NCBI GenBank assembly: GCA_030549795.1
Contig: JAUQQO010000025.1
Location: 1 to 64,000, forward strand
DNA: 64,000 nt
Reading direction: 5' to 3'
Source of the DNA: Pseudomonadota bacterium
GTDB lineage: Bacteria; Pseudomonadota; Alphaproteobacteria; Geminicoccales; Geminicoccaceae
Shown here piece after piece: positions 21,282 to 50,149 of the stretch. The notes beneath the pieces were generated by a model that saw only the letters and a program-made list of their open reading frames with translations, had not been told where the DNA came from and ran no database searches. The position numbers and the translations under genes are program-made. Each line of letters begins with the position of its first letter. Within the stretch, counting starts at the first letter, position 1.

Positions 21282-21639
21282 GCCGTTCCCCCTCCTTTTC
21301 TGTCGCTCGCGCAGACCAAGCCCGAGAAACATCGATCTCGGGGGTTCGCTATCAGCTGAACGGGGCCCTAGCTAGGCGATCTGAAGTCAATCTGCAACAG
21401 TCTCTGTGTGATTCGCTCCCGAGATACTGGACAGCGCGGCGTGATACCGTCAACCGCTCGATGCGTGACTTCAAAGCAACTATACTCGTTGCGAACGCGC
21501 AACGGTTTTGCCGTGAAGCGACGAAAAACAACCTTCTCCGATGTGTCCGAGCCGACCATCGGTCCGATGCGCACGCCAGCGGTACCGCATTACAGACGCT
21601 CGAGCGGCGCGGATCTTCCCGCGCGCGCGCGGATCGACG

Positions 21640-22614
21640 ATGCTTGTGGCGATGACGCCGGAGCTCTCGATCGTCGTGCCCCTCTTCAACGAGGAGGACA
21701 ATGTCGGCCCGCTCTATGAAGCGATCGCGGCCGCACTCGAGCCTTTGCCGGTTGCGGTCGAGCTCCTGCTGGTCGACGACGGTTCGCGCGATGGCACCTT
21801 CGCTCGCGCGCTCGCCCTGCCGCGCAGCGCCAAGCCGCAGCTGCGGATCGTCAAGCTCAAGCGCAACTATGGCCAGACGGCGGCGATGGCCACCGGGATT
21901 GCGCTCGCGCGCGGGCGGGTGATCGTGACCATGGACGGCGATCTGCAGAACGATCCCGCCGACATCCCGCGCCTGCTCGCCAAGCTCGAGGAAGGTTACG
22001 ATCTCGTCGTGGGTTGGCGGCGCGAGCGCAAGGACCACTGGTCGCGGGTGCTGCCCTCGAAGATCGCCAACCGTTTGATCGGCTGGATCACAGGGGTGCC
22101 GATCAAGGACAATGGCTGTTCGCTCAAGGCCTATCGCGCGGAACTCATCAAGGCGATCCCCCTCTATGCCGAGATGCACCGCTTCATCCCGGCGATGGCG
22201 AGCTTGGCTGGCGCGCGGGTGGCCGAGCTCGAGGTGCGCCACCATCCCCGCCGCTTCGGCCGCTCGAAATACGGCTTTTCCCGCATCTACAAGGTACTGG
22301 TCGATCTGCTCGCGATTGCCACCATCCTCGATTTCGCCCGTCGGCCGATGCGGTGGCTCGTCGGCACCGGGCTTGCGGCGGCACTGTGCGCTACCTTTGC
22401 CGGCCTGCTCTTCGTGCTCACCCGCGAGCAGCCGGGTGTGGCCTTTCAAGGCGTGGTCATGCTAAGTGGTGCTCTGTCCGCCTTTTTGCTCTTCCTTGCG
22501 CTGTTGAGCTATCTCTTGCACAGCACCCGTGCCGCTCGCCTCGACCGTTTTCGGCTCCTTGCCGCCCGCTTAGGCGCAGAGCCGAGCACCGCCGCCGCAA
22601 GGGCCGTCCCATGA
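21640..22614 (+). CDS. GT2 polyprenyl-phosphate glycosyltransferase (ArnC/DPM1-like) with C-terminal TM segments
   Basis: 'LSIVVPLFNEEDNVGPLYEAI', 'LLVDDGSRDGTF', 'VTMDGDLQNDPADIPRLL', 'DNGCSLKAYRAELI'. Confidence 0.88.
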   Translation: MLVAMTPELSIVVPLFNEEDNVGPLYEAIAAALEPLPVAVELLLVDDGSRDGTFARALALPRSAKPQLRIVKLKRNYGQTAAMATGIALARGRVIVTMDGDLQNDPADIPRLLAKLEEGYDLVVGWRRERKDHWSRVLPSKIANRLIGWITGVPIKDNGCSLKAYRAELIKAIPLYAEMHRFIPAMASLAGARVAELEVRHHPRRFGRSKYGFSRIYKVLVDLLAIATILDFARRPMRWLVGTGLAAALCATFAGLLFVLTREQPGVAFQGVVMLSGALSAFLLFLALLSYLLHSTRAARLDRFRLLAARLGAEPSTAAARAVP

Positions 22615-49356: not shown

Positions 49357-49866
49357 ATGCCCAAGATCGATCGGATGCTGGTTGGCGAGGCGCTCGTGGG
49401 CGAGGGCAACGAGGTCGCGCACATCGACCTCATCATCGGCCCGCGCGGCACACCGGCCGAGACCGCCTTCGCCTTGACCCTGACCAATCAGAAAGAGGGC
49501 GTGAACGCGCTCTTGGCGGTGCTCGAGCCCAACCTCATGGTCAAGCCCGCCACCGTCATGTTCAACAAGGTCACGATCAAGAACGCCAAACAGGCGACCC
49601 AGATGTTCGGCCCGGCCCAGCGGGCAGTGGCGCTTGCGGTTGCCGATTGCGTCGCCGAAGGCACCATCCCCGAAGAAGAATGCGATGATCTCTTCATCTC
49701 GGTGGGTGTGTTCATCCACTGGGAGGCGCAAGACGACAAGAAGATCCAGCAGTACAATTACGAAGCCACCAAGCTCGCGATCGAGCGCGCGGTGGCCGGC
49801 CTGCCGCGTGCCCGCACCATGCTCGCGCGGAAAGACAAGACCAAGCATCCCTTCGGCGCCGATTGA
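49357..49866 (+). CDS. fae: Formaldehyde-activating enzyme
   Basis: '[96 protein letters not shown]'. Confidence 0.96.
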
Positions 49867-50123
49867 AAGGAACCAGCGGCCCCACCTGCGCCGGTCGGTG
49901 CGGGAAGAGCGGAACGGGCGGAATCTCCTCGGCCGCCTCCGCCGCCCCCCGAGCCTCCAGCCCCGCTCCGCCCTTCTCCCCCGCAAGCCACACCACTAGC
50001 GGGGGAGATCCCACGGGAGCCCGAGGCTCCGGTCCGGCCGGCGGGACCAACGGCTCCAGCGAGCACGGGCTGGTGGGAGACCCTGCTCCGCTTGATCGGC
50101 CTCAAGCGCAGCTGAAGCCAAAA

Positions 50124-50149
50124 GGGCGTCGGAGCTATCTCCGACGCCC
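50124..50149. terminator. Inverted-repeat terminator between fae and the HisA-like gene
   Basis: GGGCGTCGGAG-CTAT-CTCCGACGCCC; minus strand is followed by TTTT. Confidence 0.7.

Follow-up and report, generated by a model that had tools for sequence, protein, structure and literature searches.

A conserved in-frame tail behind the fae stop codon points to probable readthrough in alphaproteobacteria

The fae locus

The stretch of DNA analysed (64,000 nucleotides, 67% GC; hereafter the window) comes from a 3.16 Mb Geminicoccaceae genome (G000) and carries fae, the gene for the formaldehyde-activating enzyme, whose product traps toxic formaldehyde (Table 1). Its product matched the Fae structure PDB 1y5y over residues 3-168, that is, over the full core (phmmer, E 1.3e-68), and two other genomes of its genus carry orthologues that are 96% and 94% identical to the window gene. 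No fae match was obtained in G002, G004 and G005 of this genus, one of which is a single 3.8 Mb contig, and the gene is patchy in the genus.

Beyond the TGA of fae the same frame remains open for 82 codons (49867-50112) and is closed by a second TGA at 50113-50115. The preliminary description had reported this tail and quoted its peptide, and both the coordinates and the translation were reproduced. It had also stated that no in-frame ATG, GTG or TTG lies near the start of the tail; there was none at all between the fae stop and the helix, either in the window or in the sister sequence L002. The Pro-rich linker and amphipathic end that it described agree with a predicted disordered linker and a C-terminal helix of muH 0.52 and net charge +2. 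When the tail was used as a query against its own genome, no second copy was found. The comparison of all window genes with G001 likewise gave no clean second case of a tail, a comparison confounded by overlapping ORFs. One G001-conserved ORF (21517-22614, plus strand) is followed after its TGA by an 88-codon in-frame region that is 51% identical; its conservation could simply reflect a neighbouring gene that overlaps it.

The hairpin that begins 8 nt 3' of the second stop had been described as a terminator. The hairpin itself is strong (shuffle z -4.1). The pattern scan recognized it as terminator-like on the minus strand only, the side on which the T-run lies, so that the hairpin can at best serve as a terminator used jointly with the convergent gene.

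Table 1. Features at the fae locus of the window
Feature	Position	Strand	Basis
fae, formaldehyde-activating enzyme, 169 aa, stop TGA	49357-49866	+	ORF; phmmer; orthologues
fae stop TGA	49864-49866	+	
Predicted leaky stop context, TGA then A (TGA AAG)	49864-49869	+	TGA-A in 6/6 distinct Geminicoccaceae sequences covering the tail
Conserved post-stop segment AAGGAACCAGCGGCCCCACCTGCG (KEPAAPPA)	49867-49890	+	near-invariant in Geminicoccaceae; pS
Pro-rich linker, predicted disordered, 67 codons	49867-50067	+	AlphaFold2 pLDDT mostly <50
C-terminal amphipathic helix GWWETLLRLIGLKRS and TGA stop	50068-50115	+	kept in 7/7 Geminicoccaceae sequences covering the region
GC-rich hairpin, 11-bp, probable shared terminator	50124-50149	.	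folding; pattern scan

Distribution of the tail among Fae homologues

Stop-to-stop gaps of at least 82 codons are frequent in the window (470 of 1818, 26%), and the openness of the tail alone is ordinary and insignificant. Long gaps being so common, conservation was the deciding question. The preliminary description had raised the prospect of similar C-terminal extensions in Fae homologues, and such in-frame tails behind the fae stop were present in 14 alphaproteobacterial families, built of a linker of variable length (about 8-79 codons) and a short helix. The helices are mostly basic and amphipathic, for example GWWETLLRLIGLKR, GLLQRLASIFLGR and GWLSRLFSFFK, and those listed had muH values of 0.38-0.74 and net charges of 0 to +4.

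In the seven sequences with full coverage, which come from several genera of Geminicoccaceae, the TGA is kept and is followed by [KR]E and a stretch rich in Ala and Pro; the Pro-rich linker spans 34-79 codons, and the helix, for instance TGWWETLLRLIGLKRD, is in frame with fae in every one; in an eighth sequence (L013/L092) the contig end falls inside the tail. The same layout of stop, linker, helix and stop was found in the marine, AT-rich family f9 (helix GWLSRLFSFFK), in f60 (GWFTKLAKLLTGE) and in f119 (GLLSKLLKLLTG). The order of G320, which we labelled Rhizobiales on the basis of its Fae relatives, carries the tail in f71, f171, f174, f183, f196, f200, f204, f207, f216 and f221, with GLLQRLASIFLGR and its variants as the helix and PGPIRRWLQKLGF in f204. 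To this order's helix type belongs genus g235, which matches Methylobacterium and has a Fae that shares up to 97% identity with the M. extorquens enzyme of known structure; here 97 of 99 genomes have the tail and the helix (GLLQRLASIFLGR) is strongly conserved. Tails are conserved across families that include genomes of about 27-30% GC, and on this comparative evidence the conservation of the in-frame tail across 14 families exceeds chance.

Among the Fae sampled, the tail was absent from Azospirillum, from Methylobacter and other beta- and gammaproteobacteria, and from most genera of f71. Fae without the tail is common, so Fae does not require it. The tail state changes at least nine times on well-supported branches of a tree built from 184 Fae. 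Two genomes of one genus inside a tail-bearing family (L236 and L240; f174, g456) have no tail and their fae ends in TAA, a state consistent with the joint loss of leaky termination and tail.

Coding frame and selection

Among 219 distinct fae sequences, a strict helix motif was found in 113, within 330 nt past the stop, in frame 0 in every case and never in frames +1 or +2. The helix is always in frame despite widely varying linker lengths. Counts were made with this strict pattern, which does not depend on the stop, because a looser one gave 8 matches among 438 control frames and, behind a TAA (L118), one likely false positive. A coding shadow of a shifted frame was rejected, as the helix motif never occurs in forward frames 1 or 2; the antisense frames are open in many, not all, tails.

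The absence of codon constraint in close relatives had been named beforehand as evidence against a functional tail. Such constraint was present: in codon-aligned tails dN/dS ranged from 0.16 to 0.58. The value was 0.16 in g235 (4.4 and 2.2 in the shifted frames), 0.20 in f207 (1.1 and 4.2), 0.32 in f174, 0.33 in f204, 0.47 in Geminicoccaceae and 0.58 in f9, the shifted-frame values, all obtained from tails of equal length, being clearly above 1 in g235 and f207 and mixed (0.5 to 1.9) in the smaller f174, f204 and f9 sets. For the f9 helix alone pN/pS was 0.29 versus 0.67 and 5.9 in the shifted frames. Unaligned codon statistics (Fae C60 columns, Rhizobiales and Geminicoccaceae) were left out, since indels make them unreliable. 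Judged by these substitution patterns, the tail encodes protein in frame with fae and is under purifying selection.

Stop codon identity and context

Stop codons are read through in the order UGA > UAG > UAA, UGA followed by A at +4 tends to be misread by tRNA-Trp in E. coli, and highly expressed genes prefer UAA (PMC5289835). The fae genes with the strict motif (n = 113) end in TAG (70) or TGA (43) and never in TAA, compared with 44 TAA among the 106 other fae genes, and their +4 base is A in 102/113 and T in none of them, versus A in 11/106 and T in 29/106 of the others; these raw counts overstate independence, as the species share ancestry. When independent pairs on the Fae tree were compared, A at +4 tracked the tail 5.7:0.1 (median p 0.03); for tail with versus against TAA the ratio was 0:3.1, which was not significant. 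Every g235 genome with a match has exactly one TAG per match (97/97), and exactly one TGA per match was found in the f9 order (21/21). This usage is odd because the local background differs: at the f9 loci TAA makes up 54 of 84 stops (64%) and TGA 20%, and at the g235 loci TAG accounts for 15 of 73 (about 20%) and TAG-A for only 3 of 73. The comparison thus indicates that the stop is conserved and is of a presumably leaky type and context (TGA or TAG, mostly with A at +4).

In one genome (G895; L294, within the first 80 nt of contig C51) the TGA of the relatives is replaced by TCA, so that Fae and tail read as one continuous protein; as the site lies within about 80 nt of the contig end, this is a possible assembly error.

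Nucleotide signal behind the stop

In f9 the first seven post-stop codons had a pS of 0.11, versus 0.30 for the helix and 0.61 for Fae; in Geminicoccaceae the first seven codons had 0.22 and the helix 0.34. The Rhizobiales set as a whole did not have a low pS in these seven codons (0.44 vs 0.41); codon 7 after the stop is CAG in 41 of its 42 distinct sequences. At the f9 loci (e.g., L028, 3008-3031) the 24 nt NNT TCA TCC RAC ATG AAG CCA TCA are near-invariant, synonymous sites included. RNA folding around the stop gave no consistent structure (mean z from +0.5 to -1.8). The first post-stop codons of f9 thus seem to be under nucleotide-level constraint, as do, more modestly, those of Geminicoccaceae, and the KEPAAPPA segment of the window is possibly also a nucleotide-level readthrough signal.

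Route of translation

Apart from readthrough, the preliminary description had considered chance openness in GC-rich DNA and an ancestral fusion recently cut by a stop. The abundance of long open gaps in the window speaks for chance, but the occurrence of the tail in families that include genomes of low GC content, the retention of the stop in 97/97 and 21/21 genomes and dN/dS values below 1 weigh against both ideas, which we regard as practically untenable: chance is rejected by conservation in 14 families, purifying selection and the lack of TAA, and a recent cut is contradicted by the keeping together of stop and tail in the same families under that selection. Decoding of the TGA as selenocysteine in a longer Fae is just as implausible. 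The window stop is TGA, and the tail-bearing G744 has a tRNA-Sec, but many families, G744 included, use TAG; among 17 genomes a strong tRNA-Sec signal was obtained in G744 only, four other candidate loci examined with ARAGORN were tRNA-Ser, and the same search gave matches in all 14 control genomes. The interchange of TAG and TGA and the restriction of the strong signal to G744 remove selenocysteine as a general route, and the tail was not placed among selenoproteins, for which UGA throughout together with a tRNA-Sec in the genome would be expected. In G744 (f207, L268) the tRNA-Sec gene has the anticodon tca and the fae tail sits behind TAG.

The tail could also be a separate small protein, unfused to Fae and made by internal initiation or stop-coupled reinitiation. 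An ATG lies at codon 5 past the TGA in every distinct f9 sequence, and the AAGGA that directly follows the stop in Geminicoccaceae looks like a ribosome binding site. Against this, ATG, GTG and TTG are absent before the helix in 70 of 115 tails (45 have one), and 35 of 115 lack any start, near-cognate codons included; moreover, an ORF of its own need not hold the fae frame across many linker lengths, nor retain TGA or TAG and A at +4, nor avoid TAA. We consider a separate protein improbable in general, with internal initiation a possible route in f9. Readthrough is the simplest remaining route to the tail, we infer, and the suggestion in the preliminary description that it yields a tailed, tethered minority form of Fae gains strong support from the comparative data. 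As far as sequence comparison can tell, there is a good likelihood that conserved and probably programmed readthrough equips a small share of the Fae subunits with the C-terminal helix.

Proposed function of the tail

Most ribosomes would end at the TGA, or at the TAG of other lineages, and release ordinary soluble Fae. In a minority, a near-cognate tRNA would decode the stop, and translation would continue through the flexible linker into the basic amphipathic helix. Fae is a homopentamer, and therefore a readthrough of a few percent would place one tail on a sizeable share of the pentamers. When the TGA was translated as W, AlphaFold2 modelled the Fae core with mostly good confidence, the linker as disordered and residues 239-246 as a C-terminal helix with a pLDDT of about 74. 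A short amphipathic C-terminal helix past a flexible linker, as predicted here, is the arrangement of the FtsA and MinD type of membrane-targeting helix. Like the C-terminal helices of FtsA and MinD, to which the tail helices are similar in kind in hydrophobic moment and net charge, the tail would most likely keep part of the Fae on the cytoplasmic side of the inner membrane, and tethered Fae would sit close to where formaldehyde produced in the periplasm comes in.

Readthrough could also be real with the helix binding a protein partner, such as a C1-pathway enzyme or an assembly scaffold, instead of the membrane. Enzyme-tethering and encapsulation peptides are short amphipathic C-terminal helices on flexible linkers, and the strong conservation of GLLQRLASIFLGR in g235 would suit a partner. 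The helix sequence, however, diverges widely between families, whereas its amphipathicity, mostly basic charge and C-terminal position persist, and varied sequence with constant amphipathic character fits membrane binding better than a single specific partner. We therefore hold a protein partner to be the less likely option, though the main rival, and membrane tethering, argued by analogy, to be the likeliest function of the tail. Somewhat better than even, in our estimate, is the fuller proposal that programmed readthrough in at least 14 families supplies a fixed minor dose of membrane-tethered enzyme and is aided by a post-stop RNA stimulator (the xG[DN]xPGQ codons in Rhizobiales and TCATCCRACATG in f9).

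Discussion

For eukaryotes, there is ample documentation of conserved functional readthrough in cellular genes. In the open-licence literature searched on readthrough in Fae or M. extorquens and on conserved bacterial readthrough, the tail was not reported and no case of conserved functional readthrough of this kind in bacteria was found. The closest analogue is the peroxisomal readthrough of fungi and animals (PMC4207609), where metabolic enzymes such as LDHB and MDH1 form readthrough isoforms (PMC4207609, PMC5133446). There, as proposed here, a short leaky stop context gives a cytosolic enzyme a C-terminal targeting signal, and one gene serves two locations. Fae differs in being bacterial, in using TGA-A or TAG-A instead of UGA-CU and a helix instead of PTS1, and in that its readthrough is predicted from sequence. 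In the phage Q-beta, UGA readthrough of the coat gene in a bacterium yields A1 and extends a minority of the subunits of an oligomer, as is proposed for Fae; that gene is viral and its extension large, whereas Fae is a cellular enzyme whose tail is kept across many families.

The C-terminal amphipathic membrane-targeting helices of FtsA and MinD tether proteins fused to them to membranes (PMC6158289). The likeness to the Fae tail, an amphipathic helix at the chain end, is a resemblance only, and unlike theirs, which is always made, the Fae helix lies behind a stop codon. The solved M. extorquens Fae (PDB 1y5y, 1y60) shares the same core; its chain consists of the core only, whereas relatives up to 97% identical carry TAG and the tail. 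Many methylotrophs, among them the model genus Methylobacterium, appear to have had a second, unnoticed C-terminal form of a key enzyme of methylotrophy, which suggests a way in which a very abundant soluble enzyme could place a small fraction of itself at the membrane with no second gene.
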